Shown here in pieces: positions 29,581 to 45,571 of a DNA stretch of 64,000 nucleotides. The notes under the pieces were generated by a model. That model did no database searches and was not told the DNA's origin. It saw only the letters and a program-made list of their open reading frames with translations. The stretch is from positions 1,178,001 to 1,242,000 of the forward strand of contig NC_015727.1 in assembly GCF_000219215.1 (NCBI RefSeq), in the 5' to 3' direction. Numbering within the stretch: the stretch's first letter is position 1; each line of letters begins with the position of its first letter. The translations under genes were made by a program, and so were the position numbers. Source of the DNA: Cupriavidus necator N-1. GTDB lineage: Bacteria; Pseudomonadota; Gammaproteobacteria; Burkholderiales; Burkholderiaceae.

Positions 29581-30952
29581 TGTCAGGAATTCTGTGTGCT
29601 GAGGTCGGTTAAATAGATCTCAGCGTAGGGCGTTGGTGAAGCGGTCACCGAAGAGAATGGCGAACTGGTTGGCCGCTTGTTTCCAGGTGATGGGCGGCAT
29701 CTTCCAATCTTTCTCGATGTTGCGCAAGGCCAGGTACAGCAGCTTGCTGGCGGCTTCGTCGCTGGGGAAGTGGCCCCGGTTCTTGACGATCTTGCGCAAC
29801 TGCATGTGCATGCTCTCGATGGCATTAGTGGTGTAGATGATTCTGCGCACTTCCGGCGGATAGGCGAAGAACGGGATGACCTGCTCCCATTGCCGCCGCC
29901 ACATGTCGGCCACCGTCGGGAATTTGCGGCCCCAGTCGCTGCCGGCAAAGGCATCCAGCGCAGTGGCAGCGGCATCGGCATCGGCCGTGGCAGCCTGGTA
30001 AATCGGCTTGAGCGCGGTCGCCAGGCCCTTGCGATCCTTCCAGCTCGCCAGGTTGAGCGAGTTGCGGATCAGGTGGACGATGCAGGTCTGGATTTGCGCG
30101 GCCGGGTAGACGGCCTCGATGGCCTGGGGGAAGCCGCGCAGGCCATCGACGACGGCGACCAGGATGTCCTCCAGGCCGCGGTTCTTCAGTTCGTTGAAGA
30201 CCTTGAGCCAGAACTTGGCGCCTTCGGTCTGCTCGATCCACAGGCCGAGGACTTCCTTGCGCCCATCGGCGCGGATGCCCAGCGCGAGGTACACCGCCTT
30301 GTTCCTGACGGTGCCTTCGTCGCGGATCTTCAGGCGCAGCGCGTCGAAGTAGACAATGGGGTACATCGCCTCCAGCGGGCGCTACTGCCATTGTTCGACC
30401 TCGGCCAGCACTTCGTCGGTGATGGTGGAAATCAGGTCAGGCGAGACCTGCAGCCCATACAGTTCCTGCAGATGGCCCTGAATCTCACGCACGCTCATCC
30501 CGCGTGCATACATGCTGATTACGTGGTCGTCGAAGCCGGACAGCCGGCGTTGGTACTTGGCGACCAGTTGCGGCTCGAAGGTGGCTTGCCGGTCGCGCGG
30601 AATGTCCAGTTCCAGCTCGCCGTTGGGCGTGAGGACGGTCTTTGCACTGCTGCCGTTGCGGTGATTGCCGCTCTTGCCTTGCTTGGCCTCGCTGGCCAGA
30701 TGGTGCGTCAGTTCGGCGGCAAGCATACGCTCGGCCAACTGCTTCTTGAGCAGGCCGGCCAAGCCTGATTCACCGAGAATCGACTCGACGTCCTTGTTCT
30801 GTACCTGAGCCAGCAGTTGATCGATCAACTCATCCGGAAACAGCTTCGGCGCGCTCGATTTCTTGCTCTTCTTGGTCATGCTTGTTGTTTCGGTCATAAG
30901 GGCGTTTCTTTCGATATCGTCTCATGACCTCAACACACAAGAAATCTGACAG
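29581..30952 (-). mobile_element. IS256-family insertion sequence
   Basis: The element is bounded by 26-bp imperfect terminal repeats, 29581-29606 (TGTCAGGAATTCTGTGTGCT...) and 30927-30952, which match at 20 of 26 positions in inverted orientation. Together with the transposase frame they define a unit of about 1372 bp. I see no clear flanking target duplication. Confidence 0.85.
29620..30897 (-). pseudogene. IS256-family (Mutator-type) transposase interrupted by an in-frame amber codon
   Basis: A 425-codon frame starts MTETTSMTKKSKKSSAPKLF at 30897 and runs to 29620. At 30382-30384 a TAG interrupts it after EVEQWQ; the same frame resumes RPLEAMYPIVYFDALRLKIR, so no frameshift is involved. 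Both halves match IS256 transposases, with DDE residues in YFDALRL, VVDGLRGF and TTNAIESMH. All three acidic residues lie in the C-terminal half, and the N-terminal half holds the DNA-binding region. A single point mutation probably inactivated it, unless the TAG is read through. Confidence 0.88.
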
Positions 30953-33288: not shown

Positions 33289-33490
33289 GAACAAACGGGT
33301 GAATAAACCTTGGCGTAAGACGGATCTCCGCGGCAATCGCGCAGGCCTGCGCCCAAAAGATCAGCAACAAACCCCGTCCCAGCGTGGCGAGCCATGCACC
33401 TGCAAGCAACGGCTGTCCCGATCAGTTTATTTGGGCGGCCGGCTCGTCAAAGGCGATGCTGGCTTGCCATCCGACAGTTCATGCCATCAT

Positions 33491-33523
33491 ATGGTCTGAT
33501 GACATCAAGATCAGACGGACCAT
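33491..33523. promoter_or_regulatory. Overlapping inverted repeats at the GntR gene start
   Basis: ATGGTC (33491-33496) pairs with GACCAT (33518-33523), and TCTGAT (33495-33500) pairs with ATCAGA (33510-33515). The right arm includes the regulator's start codon, so binding would block its translation or transcription. The ATGGT half-site recurs in the 34442 palindrome. Confidence 0.5.
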
Positions 33524-34250
33524 GCCAACAAGCGAACCCATTCAACGACGCCGCCTATTTGAGGACGTGCTGGACAGGCTAACCGAGCGCATCCGCAACG
33601 GCGAGATCGCCCCAGGCGAACAGCTGCCCGCCGAGCGCGATCTCATGGAGTACTACGGTGTAGGTCGACCAGCCATTCGCGAGGCGCTCCAGGCGCTGGA
33701 ACGCGCCGGGATCATTGAAATCGCGCACGGCGAGCGCGCGCGGGTCGTGATCCCGACCCCGCAACGCCTGATTCAGCAGATCGGCGCCGGTGCGCAGCAT
33801 CTGCTGCGCTCTGACCCGGACTCGCTGGAACACCTGAAGGGCGCGCGTGTGTTTCTGGAATGCGGGATGGCGCAACTCGCCGCCGCCAATGCGACGCCTG
33901 ACGACATCCAGCGCCTGCAAGCCCGCCTGGAAGAACAGCGCCAGGCCAAGGACGACTCGGCGCTTTTCCTGACGCGCGACATGGCCTTCCACTGTGAACT
34001 GGCACGCATCAGCGGAAATCCCATTTTTCCCGCCATCGTCCAGGCCTTGTTCGAGTGGGCGCGCGAGTACTACCGAGGCATCGTGCGTGCACCCGGCGCC
34101 GAGGCGTTGACGCTCGCGGAACACCAACGTGTCATCGACGCAGTGGCCTCCCATGATGGCGATGCGGCTTCGCGCGCTATGCGCGAGCACCTCACGCGAG
34201 CCAACGCGCTCTACCGGACCCTGAACGGCTCCACAGCGGCTATCTCGTAG
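33522..34250 (+). CDS. GntR-family (FCD, NanR-like) transcriptional regulator
   Basis: 242 residues from the ATG at 33522, which begins MPTSEPIQRRRLFEDVLDRL; the open frame extends to 33384, but that part has no homology. The N-terminal winged helix (GEQLPAERDLMEYYGVGRPA, IREALQALERAG) is followed by an all-helical FCD domain with the metal/ligand residues expected in FHCEL and EHQRVIDA. Several stretches resemble E. coli NanR (INNGERARV there, IAHGERARV here). It most likely represses the sugar-acid operon just downstream; a GGTAT palindrome sits in that promoter. Confidence 0.92.
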   Translation: MPTSEPIQRRRLFEDVLDRLTERIRNGEIAPGEQLPAERDLMEYYGVGRPAIREALQALERAGIIEIAHGERARVVIPTPQRLIQQIGAGAQHLLRSDPDSLEHLKGARVFLECGMAQLAAANATPDDIQRLQARLEEQRQAKDDSALFLTRDMAFHCELARISGNPIFPAIVQALFEWAREYYRGIVRAPGAEALTLAEHQRVIDAVASHDGDAASRAMREHLTRANALYRTLNGSTAAIS

Positions 34251-34298
34251 CCGCCGCCGCTTTACCTCCCATCTCCTGGTGGCAGCGTTTGCCGGCCC

Positions 34299-34320
34299 GG
34301 CCGGCTTGTTGAAGCCGGCC
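34299..34320 (+). terminator. Hairpin after the GntR gene
   Basis: A perfect 9-bp stem (GGCCGGCTT/AAGCCGGCC) with GTTG loop lies 48 bases past the stop. There is no clear T-run, so it may be a weak terminator or attenuator. Confidence 0.45.
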
Positions 34321-34441
34321 CGCGCGTTCCCTACCGCTGGTTCACGCCAGTTCTAGCCCTGGCATTCCGCGTCTCCTCTAAGCGCTTTTCCGTGCCCATT
34401 TTGGGGCTCACGTAAACCCCGACAAAATGCCGCTTGGCATG

Positions 34442-34462
34442 ATGGTATACTCATCATACCAT
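34442..34462. promoter_or_regulatory. Candidate NanR-like operator of the sugar-acid operon
   Basis: A perfect 7-bp inverted repeat, ATGGTAT (34442-34448) and ATACCAT (34456-34462), lies about 80 bases upstream of the transporter start. GGTATA is the half-site known for E. coli NanR, and the neighbouring regulator is NanR-like. Confidence 0.6.
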
Positions 34463-34540
34463 TACACCAAGACAGCAGCGGAAGACTGCGTCAAGACGCC
34501 GTCCGACGACCGGGCCGGCGTGAGACCTACAGGAGACAAC

Positions 34541-35893
34541 GTGGAAAACACTGGAACCACCGCCACCGAGCGGTCCGCGATCCGCAAGGTATCGCTCCGG
34601 CTCGTACCCTTCATTGCGTTGATGTTCTTCATCAACTTCCTGGACCGGACCGCCATTTCCTTTGCCGGCCCCAACGGCATGACGAAGGACCTGGGCCTGA
34701 GCGCCGCGCAGTTCGGTTTTGCTGCCGGCGTGTTCTTCGTCGGTTACATCCTGCTGGAGATTCCCAGCAACCTCGCGCTTCACAAATACGGCGCCCGCCG
34801 CTGGCTGGCTCGCATCATGGTGACCTGGGGCATCGTCGCCATTCTGTTCACCTGGGTCAGCAGCATCGAAGGCCTGTACCTGCTGCGTTTCCTGCTGGGC
34901 GTTGCCGAGGCCGGGTTCTTTCCCGGCGCCATTCTCTTCCTGAGCATGTGGGTGCCGGCCCGCCATCGCTGCCACGTGCTGGCGCTGTTCTATCTGGCGC
35001 AGCCCCTCACCACTGTCATCGGCGCGCCAGTTGCCGCGCTGCTGATCGAGGCGCACGGCCTGTTCGGGCTGGCCGGCTGGCGCATTATGTTCTTTGGCGT
35101 GGCGGTGCCGGCCGTCGTAATTGGGGTGGTCGCGTGGTTCTACCTGGCCGACAAGCCTGCGCACGCCAAATGGCTGACCAAGGCGGAGCGCGACTGGCTC
35201 AGCGCTGAACTGGACAAAGAAGAGAAGATCAAGCCCCACTCGCATGGCCACATGGCTGGCCAGGCGTTGCGCGACAGCCGCGTCTGGGTTCTGGCGCTGA
35301 CCTATTTCGGCCTGATCTACGGCCTGTATGCCCTCGCGTTCTTCCTGCCCACCATCATCGGCGGCTTCGAAGCGCAATACGGCACCAAGTTCGACGTCTT
35401 CCAGAAGGGCTGGATCACGGCCATCCCCTATCTCCCGGCGGCGCTTGCACTGTTCCTGTGGAGCCGCGATGCAACCCGGCGCGGCGTGCGGCCGTGGCAT
35501 GTGGGCGTGCCCGCGCTGATCGGCGCCGTCAGCATCCCCGCGGCGCTGTACATGCAATCGCCCGCCGCGACCGTGGCTGTGATCACTGTGACGGCCTGCG
35601 CCATTTTCTCCGCCCTGCCCAACTTCTGGTCGATCCCGGCGCGCTTCCTTTCCGGTGCCGGCGCCGCAGCGGGTATTGCGCTCATCAACACCATCGGCAA
35701 CTTTGCGGGCTTCGCCGCCCCGTTTGTGACCGGCGCGGTCAAGGACGCGACGGGCTCCTACCAGGTGCCCATGTTCATCGTCGGCGGCTTCATGCTGCTT
35801 TCCGCGGTGCTCGTCTTTGCCATCTCCGCCCGGGAGAAGCAGCCCGCGCCAGAGCGAAACAGCGTGCTGGAACCGAAGGCCAACCTGAAATGA
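34541..35893 (+). CDS. MFS transporter, anion:cation symporter (ACS) family
   Basis: 450 residues from a GTG at 34541, supported by AGGAGA just upstream; the longer frame from 34427 would cover the operator palindrome. ACS-family marks are [48 protein letters not shown] and LINTIGNFAGFAAPF. Members import sugar acids and aromatic acids with protons. It is the first gene of the operon with the oxidoisomerase, RuBisCO-like protein and kinase, so the substrate is probably a branched or tetronic sugar acid. Confidence 0.93.
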   Translation: MENTGTTATERSAIRKVSLRLVPFIALMFFINFLDRTAISFAGPNGMTKDLGLSAAQFGFAAGVFFVGYILLEIPSNLALHKYGARRWLARIMVTWGIVAILFTWVSSIEGLYLLRFLLGVAEAGFFPGAILFLSMWVPARHRCHVLALFYLAQPLTTVIGAPVAALLIEAHGLFGLAGWRIMFFGVAVPAVVIGVVAWFYLADKPAHAKWLTKAERDWLSAELDKEEKIKPHSHGHMAGQALRDSRVWVLALTYFGLIYGLYALAFFLPTIIGGFEAQYGTKFDVFQKGWITAIPYLPAALALFLWSRDATRRGVRPWHVGVPALIGAVSIPAALYMQSPAATVAVITVTACAIFSALPNFWSIPARFLSGAGAAAGIALINTIGNFAGFAAPFVTGAVKDATGSYQVPMFIVGGFMLLSAVLVFAISAREKQPAPERNSVLEPKANLK

Positions 35894-35941
35894 ATTCGCA
35901 GCGCATTGGTATCGCGATGCCTGCCCAACTGGAGAACCAGC

Positions 35942-36772
35942 ATGAAAGAGAAGATCGCCCTGTTTGGCGCCGGCGGCAAGATGGGTGTGCGCCTGGCCAA
36001 AAACCTGCTCAAGTCGGACTATCGCGTCAGCCACGTTGAGGTGAGCGAGGTCGGCAAGAAGCGCCTGAAGGACGAACTCGGCCTCGAATGCGTGAGCACC
36101 GAAGCCGCCCTGGACAATGTCGATGTGGTGATCCTGGCCGTGCCCGATACCATCATCGGCAAGATCGCTGCCCAGATTGCCCCTCAGCTGAGGCCCGGCA
36201 CCATGGTCATGACGCTCGATGCGGCCGCACCGTTCGCGGGTCACTTGCCCGACCGGCCGGATCTGACCTACTTTGTCGCTCACCCGTGCCACCCGTTGAT
36301 CTTCAACGACGAGACCGACCCCGAGGCGCGCCGCGATTATTTCGGCGGCGGCGCCGCCAAGCAGTCGATCACCAGCGCGCTGATGCAGGGCCCCGAGGAA
36401 GCATTCGACCTGGGCGAAGCCGTGGCGAAGGTGATCTATGCCCCGATTCTCCGTTCCTATCGCCTGACCGTCGACCAGATGGCCCTGCTGGAGCCGGGCC
36501 TGTCGGAGACGATCTGCGCCACCCTGCTCCAAGTGATGCGCGAAGCGATGGACGAAACCGTTCGCCGCGGCGTGCCGAAGGAAGCGGCGCGCGACTTCCT
36601 GCTCGGTCACATGAACATCCTCGGCGCGGTGATCTTCAACGAAATTCCAGGCGCCTTCTCCGATGCCTGCAACAAGGCTATCGAGTTCGGCAAGCCGCGG
36701 CTGATGCGCGACGACTGGATCAAGGTCTTCGACCGCGAAGAGATTGCCGAGAGCATCCGCCGCATCACCTGA
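35942..36772 (+). CDS. apnO: D-apionate oxidoisomerase-like NAD-dependent dehydrogenase
   Basis: 276 residues from the ATG at 35942 with GGAG ahead. The N-terminal Rossmann motif is LFGAGGKMG (8-16), followed by an all-helical C-terminal domain like 6-phosphogluconate/3-hydroxyisobutyrate dehydrogenases (YFVAHPCHPLIFNDETD, GHMNILGAVIFNEIPGAFSD). Genes of this type next to a RuBisCO-like protein and a DUF1537 kinase match the D-apionate pathway, where ApnO converts D-apionate to 3-oxo-isoapionate. The assignment rests mostly on context; another sugar-acid dehydrogenase is possible. Confidence 0.75.
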   Translation: MKEKIALFGAGGKMGVRLAKNLLKSDYRVSHVEVSEVGKKRLKDELGLECVSTEAALDNVDVVILAVPDTIIGKIAAQIAPQLRPGTMVMTLDAAAPFAGHLPDRPDLTYFVAHPCHPLIFNDETDPEARRDYFGGGAAKQSITSALMQGPEEAFDLGEAVAKVIYAPILRSYRLTVDQMALLEPGLSETICATLLQVMREAMDETVRRGVPKEAARDFLLGHMNILGAVIFNEIPGAFSDACNKAIEFGKPRLMRDDWIKVFDREEIAESIRRIT

Positions 36773-36843
36773 CCCCACAGCCAACCGAGGCGAGCCATGC
36801 TGCCGGGCCGACCGGCGGCAGGAACCCAGAGCAGGAGCAAAGA

Positions 36844-38088
36844 GTGAGCGAACGAATCTACGCCAGCTACTGGCTGGAAACCGGCGACGACCCCCGGCGC
36901 GCGGCCGAGGTCATCGCCGGCGAACAGTCGAGCGGCACCTTTATCGCATTGCCGAATGAGACGCCCGAACTCAAGCAGCGCTCGGGAGCGCGCGTCGAGC
37001 GCCTCGAAGTGCTGGAGACCGTCGACAAGCCGAGCTTGCCTGGCGGGATGCCATCTGATGTCTATCGCCGCTGCGCGCTACAGATCTCGTGGCCACTCGA
37101 GAATCTCGGCCCGTCGCTGCCGAACCTGGTGTCCACCATCGCGGGCAATCTCTTCGAACTCCGGCAGGTCAGCGGGCTGCGCATCACGGACCTGCAACTG
37201 CCGGCTTCATTTGCCCGCGCGTACCAGGGACCGGCTTTCGGCATCGACGGCACACGGAAGCTGGCCGATGTCACAACCGGTCCGCTGATCGGCACCATCA
37301 TCAAGCCGAGTGTCGGGCTCTCCGTCGAGCAGACGGCGCAGCAAGTCCGGGAACTGGTGGCCGGTGGCATCGACTTCATCAAGGACGACGAACTGCAGGC
37401 CGACGGCAGCTTCTGCCCCTTTGACGAGCGGGTGAGCGCGGTGATGCGCGTGGTCAACGAGGCAGCGCAGCGCAGCGGCCGCAAGGCGATGGTCGCGTTC
37501 AACCTGACTGGTGACCTGGACCAGATGAAGCGCCGGCACGACCATGTGCTGGCACAGGGCGGGACTTGTGTCATGGTCTGCCTCAACTCGGTCGGCATCG
37601 TCGGGTTGCAGGAACTGCGCCGGCACAGTCAACTGCCCATCCATGCCCATCGCGCGGGTTGGGGGTACCTGTCGCGCAGTCCCGCCCTCGGCTGGGACTA
37701 TGCACCCTGGCAGAAGATCTGGCGGCTTGCCGGCGCCGATCATCTTCACGTGAACGGCTTGCGCAACAAATTCAGCGAAGCGGACGAAAGCGTCATTGCC
37801 GCGGCAAAAGCGGTGCTCGCGCCAGTCATGCCCGAGGCCGCCATGCCGGCCATGCCAGTCTTCAGTTCGGGACAGACCGGCCTGCAGGCCGAGGACACTT
37901 ATCGGGCCCTGGGGACGACAGACCTGATCCACACCGCGGGCGGCGGCATCTTCGGCCATCCGGCCGGCGTTTCCGCAGGGGTGGAAGCCTTGCGCGAAGC
38001 GTGGGTCGCGGCAGTCAACCATATTCCGCTGGCGCGGCATGCGGCCACCAGCAGCGCGTTGCGCCAGGCTATGGAGTTCTGGCGATGA
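36844..38088 (+). CDS. RuBisCO-like protein (3-oxo-isoapionate-4-phosphate decarboxylase or transcarboxylase/hydrolase type)
   Basis: 414 residues from a GTG with AGGAG 6 bases before. RuBisCO large-chain fold. The carbamylated Lys180 and metal ligands Asp182/Glu183 are kept in FIKDDE. Lys154 in IIKPSVG is kept, but the second Lys of the RuBisCO IKPKLG motif is Ser, so CO2 fixation is not expected. IHAHRAGWG and VFSSGQTG line the phosphate site. It is flanked by ApnO-like and DUF1537 kinase genes, pointing to the 3-oxo-isoapionate-4-phosphate step. Which of the two known RLP reactions it performs (OiaX or OiaT) cannot be read from motifs. Confidence 0.88.
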   Translation: MSERIYASYWLETGDDPRRAAEVIAGEQSSGTFIALPNETPELKQRSGARVERLEVLETVDKPSLPGGMPSDVYRRCALQISWPLENLGPSLPNLVSTIAGNLFELRQVSGLRITDLQLPASFARAYQGPAFGIDGTRKLADVTTGPLIGTIIKPSVGLSVEQTAQQVRELVAGGIDFIKDDELQADGSFCPFDERVSAVMRVVNEAAQRSGRKAMVAFNLTGDLDQMKRRHDHVLAQGGTCVMVCLNSVGIVGLQELRRHSQLPIHAHRAGWGYLSRSPALGWDYAPWQKIWRLAGADHLHVNGLRNKFSEADESVIAAAKAVLAPVMPEAAMPAMPVFSSGQTGLQAEDTYRALGTTDLIHTAGGGIFGHPAGVSAGVEALREAWVAAVNHIPLARHAATSSALRQAMEFWR

Positions 38089-39479
38089 GCGCATCCTCGA
38101 CCGCTGGCCTGCCTGCGGGCTTGCTGCTGACCTACTATGGGGACGACTTCACCGGCTCCACCGATGCCATGGAAGTCATGGCGGCGGCCGGCATTCCCAC
38201 CGTGCTATGCCTGGAGCCGCCCACCGCTGAACTGCTCAAGCGCTTCCCTGAGGCACGCTGCGTCGGCCTTGCGGGTTCCGCCCGCGGCCGTAGCCCCGAG
38301 TGGATGGAAACTGAATTGCCGAAGGCATTCGCCAGCCTGAAGCAGCTTGGCGCGCCGGTCCTGCAGTACAAGATCTGCTCGACCTTCGACTCCTCGCCCG
38401 CCATCGGTTCGATCGGAAAGGCCATCGACCTGGGCGTGCAGACAGTCGGCGGTCGATGGGTACCGATGGTGGTTGGCGCGCCGCGGTTGAAGCGCTACCA
38501 GTTGTTCGGCAATCTGTTTGCCGCCATCGGCGGTGAAGGCTTTCGGCTTGATCGCCACCCGACCATGTCGCGTCACCCGGTGACGCCGATGGCGGAGGCC
38601 GACTTGCGCGTGCACCTGCGCGAGCAGTCGGCGCGCCCCATCACGTTGGTCGACATGGTGCGGCTGCAAGCGGGAATGGGAGCCGGGCACGTCGCTGCCC
38701 ACGCCGCTGACAACAACAAGGAGGCGCCGGTCGTGCTGATCGACGTGCTGGACGACGCGACCCTGCTCGCAGCCGGCCAACTGGTCTGGGAAGGCAAAGG
38801 CAGCGGTGTGTTCACGGCCTCGTCGTCCGGCTTGCAGTACGCGCTCACGGCATACTGGCGCCAGCGCGGCTGGATTTCGCCGCAGGCTGGCCTGCCCCCC
38901 GCCGCGCCCGCATCGGTCATCGCAGTGGTGAGCGGAAGCTGCTCTCCGGTGACGGCCGCACAGATCGAGTGGGCTGCCCGCAATGGCTTTACCACCGAAC
39001 GCGTGGACCTCTGGAAGATCCTGCACACCGAGACGGCGCAAGCAGAAATCGAACGTGTGGTCGAGTTGGCCTGCAGCAGCATCCGGCAGGGAATCAGCCC
39101 AGTCGTCTACACCGCCATGGGGCCGGACGATTCGGCCGTCATCGGCTTCGACACGCTCGCACGCGACGCCGGCCGGACCCGGGCCGATGCCGCGCGGTTG
39201 GTGGGTACCACGCTGGCGGAGGTCATGAAACGCCTGCTTGATCGCACCGGACTCAGGCGAGTCGTTGTGGCAGGCGGCGACAGTTCCGGGGAGGTGGTCA
39301 GCATGCTCGGCATCGCGGCGCTGGCAGTGGAAGCCGCCATGGCACCGGGCGCCCCCCTTTGCCGCGCTTACTCGCGTTTGCCGCAGCGGGACAGCATGGA
39401 GATTATCCTCAAGGGCGGACAAATTGGCGACGATTCGTTCTTTGGGAAGGCATTGGCCGGCGGCGCATTCAACGGCTGA
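38085..39479 (+). CDS. oiaK: DUF1537-family four-carbon/branched sugar-acid kinase (3-oxo-isoapionate kinase-like)
   Basis: 464 residues. The start ATG overlaps the RLP stop (ATGA), giving translational coupling. The N-terminal domain carries YYGDDFTGSTDAMEVM, the acidic substrate site of DUF1537 kinases. The C-terminal nucleotide-binding domain has GPDDSAVIGFDTLA and VVVAGGDSSGEVVSMLGI. The family phosphorylates threonate, erythronate, 3-oxo-tetronates or 3-oxo-isoapionate. The ApnO-like and RLP partners favour the last, by context rather than by residues. Confidence 0.82.
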   Translation: MSASSTAGLPAGLLLTYYGDDFTGSTDAMEVMAAAGIPTVLCLEPPTAELLKRFPEARCVGLAGSARGRSPEWMETELPKAFASLKQLGAPVLQYKICSTFDSSPAIGSIGKAIDLGVQTVGGRWVPMVVGAPRLKRYQLFGNLFAAIGGEGFRLDRHPTMSRHPVTPMAEADLRVHLREQSARPITLVDMVRLQAGMGAGHVAAHAADNNKEAPVVLIDVLDDATLLAAGQLVWEGKGSGVFTASSSGLQYALTAYWRQRGWISPQAGLPPAAPASVIAVVSGSCSPVTAAQIEWAARNGFTTERVDLWKILHTETAQAEIERVVELACSSIRQGISPVVYTAMGPDDSAVIGFDTLARDAGRTRADAARLVGTTLAEVMKRLLDRTGLRRVVVAGGDSSGEVVSMLGIAALAVEAAMAPGAPLCRAYSRLPQRDSMEIILKGGQIGDDSFFGKALAGGAFNG

Positions 39480-39495
39480 CGGCGGCCGCATCGCG

Positions 39496-39860
39496 CTATC
39501 GTCTTTCCAGCTGCGCCAGTGCATTCAGCAGGCGCGCACGCGCGGAGGCTGCAGGCGCACGGAGGGCATCACGATGATGATGGGCATGGCCGGCGGCCGG
39601 TGTCCGGGCAGCAGCTCAACCAGCGTGCCGCCTGCCAGTTCTTCACCGACCATCTTGTCCGGGACCTGGCAAATGCCCAAGCCGAGCACCGCGGCGGCGA
39701 CCATGCCCTCCCCGTCATTGACCTGCAGGCGCTGGCACGGCGCGATTTCCGTCATGCGGTGCGCGTCCATCAGGTGCCAGGGACGCTGGCGTCCAGAACT
39801 GGGCAGGCAAAAGACGATGGGTGCATATGCGGGATCGTAGGTAAATAGGAGAGTAGCCGC
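39496..39860 (-). pseudogene. LysR-family effector-domain remnant
   Basis: Minus-strand fragments read YDPAYAPIVFCLPSSGRQRP, WHLMDAHRMTEIAP, RLQVNDGEGMVAAAVLGLGI, CQVPDKMVGEELAGGTLVEL and PPAMPIIIVMPSVRLQPPRV. This is the C-terminal lobe of a LysR regulator. The helix-turn-helix half is gone. A frame change near 39530 separates it from its natural end (LLNALAQLERR, stop at 39496). Confidence 0.75.
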
Positions 39861-40196: not shown

Positions 40197-41168
40197 TCAA
40201 AGCTGGCGAGTCATCTCCGCATGGGTTGCCCTTACAGTTGCCTTCGACTGCGCCCTGCGTTGAAGATGTGAGATAAATCTTTCCGCCACGTCCGAAAGTG
40301 GCTCATCTTTGCGGGTCAGCACGCCGAATGCTTTCAAGTCCAGCCCGATGACGATCGGCAGCGTTGCCAGCAAACTCGCCCTGACGTGATCCCGCACGAC
40401 CGATTCCGGCAACATCGCGACGGCGTCACCGGACTGTAAGAGTTGCAAGGTGGCAAAAATCGAAGAGCACTCGATCACGTCTTCCGGAGTGGACACGTGC
40501 GCCTGCGCGAATTGCTCTTCCAACATCAAGCGGGCCGGGCTGGTTAGTGTCTGTAGCACCCATGGCCAGCGCACCAGTTCGTCCCAATTCAGTTGCTCAC
40601 ACCGCGCGAGCGGATGCCCATTGCGAACGACGATGCGTAGCGGTTCGTCCGACAGCGCCGAGAAGTCGAACTTGTTGTGGTCCAGTGGCCCGGTGAATCG
40701 GCCCACGGCGAGTTCGATCTCGTGCCGCTCCAGTAGAGCGCCAATCTGGTCACTGGTCTCACCAAGGATTCGCACATTCAGGCGGGGCCGTTCGCGCTTG
40801 ATATCCGCCACCGCTGCGGCGACGAGATCCGGGGCCGCCCCCATGATCGCACCGAGAACGAGATGGCCATGGCCACCCCGCCGCTTGGTTTCGAGATCCT
40901 CAAGAAAGCGGGCCAGGCTAGCCTGCGTTTGCCGCGCGTATGTCACCACCTCCTGCCCCAGCGGCGTCGCCCGCATGCCGCGCGCGTGACGCTCAAAAAT
41001 GGGGAAGCCAAAGGCTTGCTCGATATCCGCCAGCATCTTTGTGGCTGAGGGCTGGGTCACATTGATGAGCGCCGCAGCCTGATTCAACGTCGGTGTGTCG
41101 CTTAATGCACTCAGCAGAGCCCAGTGCTTGAGTTTGAGACGGTTCACCAAGCGGGGCGTCAGCGACAT
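40197..41168 (-). CDS. LysR-family regulator of the L-rhamnonate cluster
   Basis: 323 residues. The N-terminal winged helix at 10-75 (TPTLNQAAALINVTQPSATK, MLADIEQAFGFPIFERHARG) resembles the GbpR/CbbR-like subgroup often tied to sugar metabolism, and the periplasmic-binding-like effector domain spans about 95-300. It is divergent from the FAH-family hydrolase gene with a perfect LysR-type palindrome between them, which supports control of that operon and of itself. The effector is probably L-rhamnonate or a pathway intermediate (inference). Confidence 0.93.
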   Translation of the reverse strand: MSLTPRLVNRLKLKHWALLSALSDTPTLNQAAALINVTQPSATKMLADIEQAFGFPIFERHARGMRATPLGQEVVTYARQTQASLARFLEDLETKRRGGHGHLVLGAIMGAAPDLVAAAVADIKRERPRLNVRILGETSDQIGALLERHEIELAVGRFTGPLDHNKFDFSALSDEPLRIVVRNGHPLARCEQLNWDELVRWPWVLQTLTSPARLMLEEQFAQAHVSTPEDVIECSSIFATLQLLQSGDAVAMLPESVVRDHVRASLLATLPIVIGLDLKAFGVLTRKDEPLSDVAERFISHLQRRAQSKATVRATHAEMTRQL

Positions 41169-41183
41169 TTACAGTCTCCTTCA

Positions 41184-41200
41184 TATTCCGAAACGGAATA
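41184..41200. promoter_or_regulatory. LysR box in the divergent rhamnonate promoter
   Basis: TATTCCG-AAA-CGGAATA has perfect 7-bp arms and contains the T-N11-A core. It lies 15 bases from the LysR start and 83 from the hydrolase start. Confidence 0.7.
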
Positions 41201-41283
41201 GCTTCTTCGTATCTTTCGATTGGAATGATATAGCGGGCCCGCATACAGTTCAACGCATTCCACACCGACAGACAGGAGACACA

Positions 41284-42147
41284 ATGAAGCTGATCCGCTA
41301 TGGCGCGGCAGGCCAGGAACGGCCAGGTATGGTCGATGCACAGGGCCGCATCCGCGATCTTTCTGCCCACATTCCCGATGTCACGGGCGACACGATTTCC
41401 CCGCAATCGGTGGCACGCTTGGCCGCCATAGATCCGGCGACTCTGCCGCTGGTAGAGGGCTCACCCCGCGTTGGTCCCTGCGTTGGCGCGGTGGGCAAGA
41501 TGGTTTGCGTCGGCCTGAACTATTCCGACCATGCGGCGGAATCGAATATGGCGATACCGACCGAACCGGTGCTGTTCATGAAAGCCACCAGCGCAATCGT
41601 GGGCCCCAATGACGACGTCGAAATCCCACCCCGCGCTGAAAAGGTCGACTGGGAAGTGGAACTCGGAGTGGTGATCGGAAAGACCGCGCGATACGTGTCG
41701 AAGGCCGATGCGCTGGACCACGTGGCCGGCTATTGCATCGTCAACGATGTTTCGGAGCGTGCCTACCAACTCGAACGCGGCGGCCAGTGGGACAAGGGCA
41801 AGAGCTGCGACACATTCGGCCCGCTGGGCCCCTGGCTGGTGACCAGGGACGAAGTGCCCGACGCGCAGGCGCTCGCACTCTGGCTAGAAGTAGACGGCAA
41901 GTCCTACCAGAATGGAAACACGAGCACAATGATCTTCGACGTGCCGACGCTGGTGTCCTATATCAGCCAGTTCATGAGCCTGCAGCCGGGCGACGTGATT
42001 TCCACCGGCACGCCGCCGGGCGTGGGCTTCGGCCAGAAGCCCGTTCCAGTCTACCTCGGCGCGGGCCAGGTCATGCGGCTCGGCATCACTGGGCTCGGTG
42101 AGCAGCGCCAGCGCACTGTCCCTGCCAATGTAGAGGGCGCACAATGA
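41284..42147 (+). CDS. Fumarylacetoacetate hydrolase-family protein (2,4-diketo-3-deoxy-L-rhamnonate/fuconate hydrolase-like)
   Basis: 287 residues from the ATG with AGGAGA ahead; the longer frame from 41095 runs back into the LysR gene and is not real. Metal ligands by FAH pattern are Glu124 and Glu126 in VDWEVELG and Asp155 in IVNDVSER. GLNYSDHAAE and STGTPPGVGFG are typical of the diketo-acid hydrolase and ureidoglycolate-lyase-like branch. With an SDR and an L-rhamnonate dehydratase in the same operon it fits the last step: cleavage of 2,4-diketo-3-deoxy-L-rhamnonate to pyruvate and L-lactate. Confidence 0.87.
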   Translation: MKLIRYGAAGQERPGMVDAQGRIRDLSAHIPDVTGDTISPQSVARLAAIDPATLPLVEGSPRVGPCVGAVGKMVCVGLNYSDHAAESNMAIPTEPVLFMKATSAIVGPNDDVEIPPRAEKVDWEVELGVVIGKTARYVSKADALDHVAGYCIVNDVSERAYQLERGGQWDKGKSCDTFGPLGPWLVTRDEVPDAQALALWLEVDGKSYQNGNTSTMIFDVPTLVSYISQFMSLQPGDVISTGTPPGVGFGQKPVPVYLGAGQVMRLGITGLGEQRQRTVPANVEGAQ

Positions 42148-42896
42148 ATCAGCTTGACATGAAAGGCCGCGTGGCCATCGTCACTGGCGGCGCTCAGGGC
42201 ATCGGTTACGCCGTGGCGGAACGCATGCTTAGGTCGGGCGCCGAGGTGGCACTGTGGGATATCAACGAAGTCCAACTCACCACGGCTCGTAACGCTCTGG
42301 CCCAATTCGGCAAGGTCACCACCGAAGTGGTTGAACTGACCGACGAAGCTTCCGTGGGTGCCGCCACGAAGGCGACTCTGGGCAAGCTCGGTCGCATCGA
42401 TGTCCTGGTCAACAGCGCTGGCATTACGGGCGGCAACGGCTCGACCTGGGAACTGGAACCAGAAGTGTGGCGCCGTGTGATCGAGGTGAACCTGATCGGC
42501 AGCTACCTGACGTGCCGCGCCGTCGCGCCTCAGATGATCAAACAGGCCTATGGGCGCATCGTCAACATCGCGTCTGTGGCCGGCAAGGAGGGAAACCCCA
42601 ACGCGTCACACTACAGCGCTTCCAAGGCTGGCCTGATCGGGTTGACCAAGTCGCTCGGCAAGGAATTGGCTAAGAGCGGTGTACTGGTTAACGCGGTTAC
42701 GCCTGCCGCTGCCAAGACGCCGATCTTCAATTCGATGAAAGCCGAGCATATCGAGTTCATGTTGTCCAAGATCCCCATGGGGCGCTTCCTTGAAGTAGAC
42801 GAGGCCGCCTCGATGATCACCTGGCTGACTACCGAAGACTGCGCCTTCAGCACTGGGGCGGTGTTTGACCTCTCTGGCGGACGCGCCACCTATTGA
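42144..42896 (+). CDS. SDR-family oxidoreductase (2-keto-3-deoxy-L-rhamnonate/fuconate dehydrogenase-like)
   Basis: 250 residues of a classical short-chain dehydrogenase: cofactor motif TGGAQGIG at 14-21, VNSAG at 89-93, catalytic Ser144, Tyr157 and Lys161 (YSASK). Asp39 in LWDIN suggests preference for NAD(H). The ATG overlaps the hydrolase stop (ATGA), so the two are coupled. In the diketo-hydrolase pathway an SDR oxidises 2-keto-3-deoxy-L-rhamnonate at C4 to feed the hydrolase, which matches this position. Confidence 0.88.
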   Translation: MNQLDMKGRVAIVTGGAQGIGYAVAERMLRSGAEVALWDINEVQLTTARNALAQFGKVTTEVVELTDEASVGAATKATLGKLGRIDVLVNSAGITGGNGSTWELEPEVWRRVIEVNLIGSYLTCRAVAPQMIKQAYGRIVNIASVAGKEGNPNASHYSASKAGLIGLTKSLGKELAKSGVLVNAVTPAAAKTPIFNSMKAEHIEFMLSKIPMGRFLEVDEAASMITWLTTEDCAFSTGAVFDLSGGRATY

Positions 42897-43001
42897 GCCT
42901 GGACGCAGGCCTGCATAAGACAGGTCGCGATTCCATGGACCAAACATTACAAAAAAGGGCGCGCAGGCCCGCAAGGCAGCCGCGCCCCGGAGACACACAT
43001 C

Positions 43002-44318
43002 ATGAATGCCCATCGTCCGGCCATTGAGTCGGTAACCGCCAAGGCGATCGTACGCCTGGTGCCTTTTCTACTGCTGATGTACGTGCTTGCCTTTCTCGAC
43101 CGCGCCAACGTCGGCTTCGCAAAGAAGGCTTTCCAGCTCGATACTGGCATCTCCGATTCAATGTTTGCACTCGGCGCCGGTGTGTTCTTTCTCGGCTACG
43201 CGTTACTCGAAGTGCCGAGCAATTTGATCATGCACCGCGTTGGCGCCCGCATCTGGATGTCGCGGATCATGGTGACGTGGGGAATGGTTTCCGCTGCACT
43301 GATGTTTGTCCACAGTGAAACCGCCTTTTATGCACTGCGCTTCCTACTGGGGGTAGCGGAGGCCGGATTCTTTCCCGGCGTCATCTACTATTTGACGAAG
43401 TGGTTCCCGGCGAGTGCACGCACCCGCGTGATGGGGATGTTCTACTTTGGCGCGCCCCTGGCATTCATCTTCGGCAGCCCGCTCTCTGGCATGCTGCTCG
43501 AACTCGATGGTTTGCTAGGCTTCAAAGGCTGGCAATGGCTTTTCATGGTCGAAGGGCTGCTCGCGAGCATTGTGGGCGTGTGGGCGTACTGGTATCTCGA
43601 CAATACCCCACGCGATGCGAAATGGCTGTCCCCCGCCGAGCGCGATGTCCTCGCTTTGGCCATCGATAGCGAAGAGCAAATCAAATCCTCGCACGGACCG
43701 AGCACAGTATTGCGCGCGTTGGGCAATGGTCGGGTGCTGTTCCTATCGCTCATCTACTTCCTGATTCAAGTCAGCGTGTACGGCGTGGTGTTCTACCTGC
43801 CAACGCAAGTGGCGGCGCTGCTGGGTAAGAAGGTCGGCTTCGAAGTCGGCCTGGTAACAGCGATCCCATGGGTCTGTGCGCTCGCGGCGGCTTACTTCCT
43901 TCCCCGAATGGCCGAGCGGCGCGGACACCATGAGCGCATCGCGCTCGCCACGCTGGCCGTGGCGGCCGCCGGCATCGCGCTCTCAGTCAATGCGGCATCT
44001 CCGATCGTCGCACTGATTGCCCTGTGCTTCGCGGCCGCCGGCTTCATCGGGGTGCAGCCGCTGTTCTGGACCTTCCCGACAAACTACCTCGGGGGAGCCG
44101 CGGCTGCTGGCGGCATCGCTCTGATCAATTCGCTCGGCGCACTCGGCGGCTTTGTCGCGCCGAACGTCAAGACGTGGGCGGAGCATGCCTTTGCATCGCC
44201 GAGTGCCGGGCTCAATCTTCTCTCCGTCACCACTGCGATCGGCGCAGTGCTGTTCCTGAAACTCCGAAGCCCGAGGGCTGCCACTCCCGTGGCAAATCCT
44301 GGAACGCACTCGGCTTGA
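43002..44318 (+). CDS. MFS transporter, ACS family (probable L-rhamnonate importer)
   Basis: 438 residues with ACS motifs [57 protein letters not shown] and a final [15 protein letters not shown]. It is homologous to the transporter of the 34.5-39.5 kb operon and sits between the SDR and dehydratase genes. GGAGA precedes the ATG. Sugar-acid import is the family role; L-rhamnonate is inferred from the operon. Confidence 0.93.
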
Positions 44319-44383
44319 ACCCGAGCGGTTCGCCCCCGAACACCTCTGACCAAACAAACTGAGCCTTTTGTAGGAGTTCCCAC

Positions 44384-45571
44384 ATGTCCATGCCTACCAT
44401 CAAGCACGTTCGCGCTTTCACGCTGCGCGGCGCTGGCGCTGACTATCACGACCAGGGTGATGGTCACTGGATTGACGATCACATCGCCACGCCAATGTCC
44501 AAGTATCCCGAGTTCCGGCAGAGCCGCCGGAGTTTTGGCCTCAACGTCCTTGGCACGCTGGTGGTCGAGATCGAGGCGAGCGATGGCACCGTGGGCTTTG
44601 CTGTCACGACCGGCGGCGAGCTCGGCTGCTGGATTGTCGAGAGGCATCTCGCCCGCTTCATCGAGGGCCAGAAGGTGACGGACATCGAGAAAATCTGGGA
44701 CCAGATGTTCAACTCGACGCTTTACTACGGACGAAAGGGTATCGTCCTCAACACCATCTCGGGCGTGGACCTGGCGCTGTGGGATCTGCTGGCCAAGATC
44801 CGCAAGGAGCCTGTCCACGCGCTGCTTGGGGGTCCGGTGCGTGATGAACTGCAGTTCTACATGACGGGCGCGCGGCCCGATTTCGCCAAGCAGCAGGGCT
44901 TCATCGGCGGCAAGCTGCCGTTACACCACGGCCCCGCGGAAGGCAAAGAAGGCCTGAGGAAGAACTTGGAACTGCTCGCTGACATGCGCGAAAAATGCGG
45001 CCCGGACTTCTGGCTGATGTACGACTGCTGGATGAGCCTGGATGTTGACTATGCTACGCGTCTCGCTCAGGCCGCGTACAACGAGTTTGGGATGAAATGG
45101 ATCGAGGAGGCCTTGCCGCCCGACGATTACTGGGGCTACGCCGAGCTACGTCGCAATGTACCGCGCGGCATGCTCGTGAGCACCGGTGAGCATGAGGCTA
45201 CGCGTTGGGGCTTTCGCATGCTACTGGAGATGGAATGCTGCGACATCCTGCAACCGGATGTCGGCTGGTGCGGCGGCATTACCGAGCTGATCAAAATCTC
45301 CGCATTGGCCGACGCGCGGGGCAAGCTGGTGGTCCCTCACGGCTCGTCGGTCTACAGCTATCACTTTGTCATCACGCGCCACAACAGCCCATTTGCTGAA
45401 TTCCTGAATATGTCGCCGGGCGCGGACGAGATCGTGCCGATGTTCCATCCGCAATTGCTTGACGAGCCAGTGCCAGTGAACGGACGAATGAAGGCCTCCG
45501 CGCTGGATGCGCCCGGGTTCGGTGTGCGCCTCAACCCCGAGCTGCCGTTGCACCGGCCATTCGAGCGCTGA
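44384..45571 (+). CDS. rhmD: L-rhamnonate dehydratase
   Basis: 395 residues, family length, enolase superfamily. It dehydrates L-rhamnonate to 2-keto-3-deoxy-L-rhamnonate. It has the strongly conserved RhamD stretch [20 protein letters not shown], then [20 protein letters not shown] and [15 protein letters not shown]. Metal ligands are in [17 protein letters not shown] and [11 protein letters not shown], and the catalytic His in [15 protein letters not shown] precedes the ATG. It is the last gene of the operon. No L-rhamnose dehydrogenase or lactonase is present, so the cluster handles the acid itself. Confidence 0.93.

Follow-up and report, generated by a model that had tools for sequence, protein, structure and literature searches.

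D-Apionate is the acid derived from apiose, a plant cell-wall sugar. Carter et al. are said to have described, in 2018, a D-apionate gene block of Xanthobacter autotrophicus with OiaT, a RuBisCO-like protein (RLP). The passage of PMC6302742 on these proteins shows that two RLP reaction types are known in D-apionate pathways, as an initial annotation of the DNA studied here had stated; it names decarboxylation and transcarboxylation as the reactions of the RLPs of K84 and X. autotrophicus, and gives transcarboxylation/hydrolysis of 3-oxo-isoapionate-4-phosphate for the X. autotrophicus protein. PMC11747546 describes a Rhodobacteraceae strain that grows on D-apiose and has a decarboxylase-type apiose cluster. 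The window analysed here, a 64,000-nucleotide stretch of contig NC_015727.1 of Cupriavidus necator N-1, holds a compact operon for a NanR-like regulator, a transporter of the MFS family, the oxidoisomerase ApnO, an RLP and a DUF1537 kinase. Which of the two reactions does this RLP carry out? The initial annotation had recognised a D-apionate-type operon from its ApnO, kinase and RLP, which our comparisons back, and held that the RLP could not be typed from motifs. Judged from sequence comparison, the operon very probably serves D-apionate catabolism and belongs to the OiaT rather than the decarboxylase (OiaX) type. The chemistry is known and this is a further example of it; what is added is the assignment of the RLP, the residues setting OiaX apart and a candidate operator common to both types.

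The comparison set consists of 117 loci; relatives are the best 80 of 541 from a scan of genome contigs, and counts lean to close relatives. The loci are short stretches, and a gene absent from one may lie outside it; the RLPs of two (L149 and L174) exactly repeat that of another locus. In genome G451, which we take to be X. autotrophicus Py2, a block has the same MFS-ApnO-RLP-DUF1537 order, and its proteins are 78, 82, 74 and 59% identical to those of the window. The genus group of G451 (g191) includes two named Xanthobacter records (L093 and L094, genomes G406 and G368), and orthology to the assayed RLP depends on G451 being Py2. Besides its RuBisCO, G451 has just one other RuBisCO-superfamily protein, an RLP; since this RLP lies within the matching block, the assayed protein was most likely this one. 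The window RLP is an ortholog of it by identity, block and supported clade. In a tree of 94 RLPs, drawn from 117 rows after 23 near relatives were dropped by hand, the window RLP and the Xanthobacter proteins share a 34-row clade (SH-aLRT 100) and the five OiaX proteins form a separate group. A 24-row tree with bootstrap, in which 12 of the 21 inner branches lack strong support, unites the window RLP and Xanthobacter in an 8-row clade (100/100). Forcing three Cupriavidus RLPs together with the five OiaX, a group that was defined once an earlier tree was known, costs 44.4 log units and is rejected (approximately unbiased test, p-AU 0.003). The four RLP matches of 93-96% identity that carry an organism name (P0009, P0014, P0015, P0017) are all Cupriavidus, and the RLP of a C. 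basilensis locus (L114) is that of a genome (G592) with the same genus code as the window.

The profile scores point the same way. The OiaX set comprises five proteins, all of one family (f44, which we take to be probably Rhizobiaceae), scoring 772-786 bits on the OiaX model NF042437, above its curated NCBIfam cut-off of 700. This is also the best-scoring NCBIfam model for the window RLP, yet the score of 445.6 bits lies below the cut-off. With the separate clades, the rejected constraint and the differing residues described below, this leads us to reject OiaX identity. RuBisCO identity was also rejected (253 bits on the form III model TIGR03326, cut-off 497.45; S at 177, I at 173), as was MtnW (161.3 bits on TIGR03332, cut-off 513.6). 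The initial annotation had named grouping with MtnW as an outcome that would sink its proposal, and this did not arise; in trees of the kind it had suggested as a check, the protein falls with the Xanthobacter clade and apart from OiaX. One genome (G055; loci L029 and L030) combines an OiaX-type RLP with another RLP that shares 51% identity with that of the window and has ApnO and NanR-like genes of its own.

What does the active site say? Residues were read from an alignment to the RuBisCO of the same genome, with positions in what we take to be spinach numbering. Kept in the window and Xanthobacter RLPs are E60, T65, N123, K175, K201, D203, E204, H294, R295, H327, K334, S379, G381, G403 and G404; changed in both are W66F, T173I, K177S and G380S. 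The KDDE metal site noted earlier is indeed there (K201, D203, E204), in a protein whose RuBisCO_large match gives it the RuBisCO-superfamily fold. The initial annotation had also stressed a lost lysine in IKPSVG. A serine does sit at RuBisCO K177, but this is nothing special: the lysine is gone across the whole RLP set, so its loss does not type the protein. At position 177 all 71 ApnO-linked relatives carry S and the five OiaX carry A; of the other 41 RLPs, 35 have S and 6 have N. In this alignment OiaX is set apart by positions 60, 123, 327 and 379: all five have D60, G123 and Q327, and position 379 is G in four and C in one. The window RLP is 42-43% identical to OiaX; genes for an OiaK-type kinase and a NanR-like protein accompany both. 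The order of the genes, the trees, the NCBIfam score and these four positions place the window RLP with Xanthobacter and away from OiaX, and an RLP deemed untypable becomes an assigned one.

Could the protein still be a decarboxylase that reached OiaX activity separately, yielding L-erythrulose phosphate and CO2? The substrate and chemistry of the two RLP types are close, and OiaX is its top-scoring model; the score is nonetheless well under 700, placement with OiaX is rejected, and the residues differ at 60, 123, 177, 327 and 379. The neighbouring genes differ as well. The OiaX loci scanned (L027, L028, L030) have TIM-like genes (3/3), DhaK and DhaL (L027) or DhaL (L030), which would fit an erythrulose-phosphate product, whereas the window operon has none of these. 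A search of the source genome, whose control matched in 3 of 14 genomes, gave no match for DhaK. We regard a decarboxylase here as very unlikely.

The other enzymes agree with the OiaT-type assignment. The window kinase exceeds the cut-off of the OiaK (3-oxo-isoapionate kinase) model NF042436 (769.3 bits against 700), as does the G451 kinase (806.3), and the kinases of seven plasmid-borne relatives score 299-577 bits. ApnO shows zero differences to PDB 5t57_A over 276 residues of the printed alignment, is the only PGDH_C protein found in its own genome (PGDH_C 1.1e-73) and, as a Rossmann protein with PGDH_C, is orthologous to the product of the gene in the Xanthobacter block (82% identity); among the model matches of the window proteins there is no NCBIfam model named ApnO. 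MFS, ApnO, RLP and kinase genes occur together in 25 of the 117 loci, two of which are one and the same contig, and in 24 the order is that of the window. Would the operon rather act on some other acid sugar, branched or with four carbons, or on hamamelose-derived acids? The former must hold for the RLP-DUF1537-TRAP loci that lack ApnO: a TRAP permease (at least 50% identical to that of L008) is found in 15 of the 117 loci, and ApnO in none of these 15. For hamamelose-derived acids an oxygenase RLP is reported to exist, and PMC10176493 and PMC8914248 mention a hamamelose RLP. The window, however, has ApnO, the same block as Xanthobacter, and a kinase above the OiaK cut-off, where the kinases of four TRAP loci score 577 (L003), 428 (L007), 448 (L008) and 299 (L009). 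We give this possibility slightly less weight still than a decarboxylase. Outside those four, OiaK scores are 582 (L036), 565 (L077) and 466 (L028). The ApnO-free RLP-DUF1537-TRAP operons (L003, L007, L008, L009, L033, L035, L038, L040, L079, L080, L081, L082, L145, L176, L177) can be set aside as a separate group; SDR genes occur in nine of them, LysR genes in six and pyruvate kinase genes in five.

How would the D-apionate operon work? OiaT-type products are 3-phosphoglycerate and glycolate. The MFS carrier would take D-apionate into the cell; by orthology, ApnO would oxidise it with migration of the hydroxymethyl group to give 3-oxo-isoapionate, and OiaK would phosphorylate this product. 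The RLP would then act on 3-oxo-isoapionate-4-phosphate at its K201/D203/E204 metal site. Loss of CO2 would likely leave an enediolate that is re-carboxylated at the neighbouring carbon, hydrated and cleaved to 3-phosphoglycerate and glycolate, and the glycolate would enter GlcDEF. The reaction class would be transcarboxylation/hydrolysis, as given for the Xanthobacter protein in the relevant passage of PMC6302742. The source genome (8.48 Mb, four contigs) contains two RuBisCO-superfamily proteins, one RuBisCO and the operon RLP, and has GlcE and GlcF above their cut-offs beside a GlcD-like gene. As query for the apiose step we used the Gfo/Idh/MocA gene of an apiose-type cluster of P. sprentiae, which we take to be ApsD. 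It found no relative in this genome and relatives of 78 and 81% identity in two control genomes. The strain may therefore be able to use D-apionate without using D-apiose.

The regulator raises a further question. The initial annotation had found the pairing with a NanR-like gene unusual, but the comparison speaks otherwise: a NanR-like gene (at least 40% identity, a threshold of our choosing) is present in 60 of the 73 ApnO loci and in all five OiaX loci, in a position relative to the operon that varies (before, after or divergent). The window protein exceeds the cut-off of the NanR subfamily PRK03837 (306.9 bits against 260). The E. coli NanR operator is GGTAT-rich, and the sequence TGGTATACTCATCATACCA 5' of the MFS gene provides a candidate operator, TGGTAT-N7-ATACCA. 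The window regulator shares with E. coli NanR, an FCD-type GntR repressor, the NCBIfam subfamily and a GGTAT-rich site (here a candidate operator), but is linked to apionate genes. With up to two mismatches, the 15-base core occurs in the promoter regions of 27 of 67 NanR loci, which are not independent of one another; 200 scrambled motifs reach 0.04 on average and 2 at most. It is found in 3 of 45 loci without detected NanR. The query comes from Cupriavidus, and the five Cupriavidus OiaT-type entries (window, L173, L174, L114, L175) are excluded from the 27 of 67. At one mismatch the figures are 6 of 67 and 1 of 45. In all five OiaX loci a two-mismatch site lies 71-77 bases 5' of the RLP match. 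The NanR-like protein is probably the repressor of the operon, acting through this candidate operator until a pathway metabolite binds. Or does its gene merely adjoin the operon and regulate something else? A LysR gene takes its place in Xanthobacter, and in 13 of the 73 ApnO loci the stretch compared contains none; its linkage in the other 60 and in the OiaX loci, and the enrichment of the candidate operator in NanR loci, make this unlikely.

Beyond the presumed repression of this one operon, a wider view can be taken. The NanR-like repressor and TGGTAT-N7-ATACCA might form a conserved proteobacterial control of apiose and apionate use, placed before OiaX- and OiaT-type operons alike, with the RLP and the end product exchanged behind it and the exchange readable from E60, N123, H327 and S379 (kept if the enzyme re-carboxylates, lost if it only decarboxylates). 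We judge the chances that this holds as evenly balanced. For apiose combined with NanR, with GntR or with transcarboxylase, no paper was found in the literature library searched. The OiaX-distinguishing residues and the operator candidate should be useful for annotating many apiose and apionate operons.

Several points weigh against the picture drawn here. At the two-mismatch threshold the operator motif is missing from 40 of the 67 NanR loci, and the Xanthobacter block has a divergent LysR gene where the window has NanR. The residue motif cannot tell OiaT apart from the 41 RLPs that have no ApnO close by, and the GlcD-like genes of the source genome fall under their cut-offs. The equation of ATCC BAA-1158 with Py2 is our assumption. 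Finally, assigning decarboxylation to K84 and transcarboxylation to X. autotrophicus is our reading of the sentence order in the passage of PMC6302742. On the Xanthobacter side, the alphaproteobacterial RLPs (L072, L093, L094) are nested in a clade otherwise mostly betaproteobacterial, which together with the LysR gene suggests transfer of the block with a change of regulator.

The gene calls and Pfam bear out the five genes in the order first described, with E-values far beyond chance for all five families (Table 1).

Table 1. Features of the putative D-apionate operon in the window
Feature	Position	Strand	Evidence
GntR/FCD regulator, NanR-like	33522..34250	+	GntR 1.2e-19, FCD 2.7e-28 (Pfam); PRK03837 306.9 bits
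Candidate operator TGGTAT-N7-ATACCA, 5' of MFS gene	34443..34461	.	Motif recurrence in NanR loci
MFS transporter (ACS-type), predicted D-apionate importer	34541..35893	+	MFS_1 1.6e-45 (Pfam); 78% identity to G451 block gene
ApnO, D-apionate oxidoisomerase by orthology	35942..36772	+	PGDH_C 1.1e-73 (Pfam); 82% identity to G451 gene
RuBisCO-like protein, probable OiaT type	36844..38088	+	RuBisCO_large 2.6e-65 (Pfam); 74% identity to G451 RLP
OiaK, 3-oxo-isoapionate kinase (DUF1537) by orthology	38085..39479	+	SBD_N 6.2e-49, NBD_C 2.5e-38 (Pfam); NF042436 769.3 bits

The coupling of RLP and kinase genes likewise stands, as the RLP stop and the kinase start share ATGA in a 4-base overlap (38085-38088). 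The RLP gene starts with GTG (36844), as does the MFS gene (34541), the latter with an AGGAG 5' of it; an alternative in-frame MFS start, ATG 34427, is possible and would put the operator candidate within the gene. Similarity to the related locus L173 is confined to 33306-39831, and the operon is therefore a block whose flanks are unrelated. On the minus strand, in tail-to-tail orientation to the kinase gene, lies a stretch (39480-39831) that by eye is LysR-like and C-terminal, without an intact start. About 3 kb before the operon, also on the minus strand, is an IS256-family transposase gene (29620-30366) lacking about its first third (profile positions 121-337 of 338). An L-rhamnonate cluster adjoins on the other side (40197-45571), with SDR, a second MFS and LysR genes. 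Its L-rhamnonate dehydratase (44384-45571) scores 767 bits against a cut-off of 393, and its hydrolase, at 447, falls just under the cut-off of 500 for 2,4-didehydro-3-deoxy-L-rhamnonate hydrolase.

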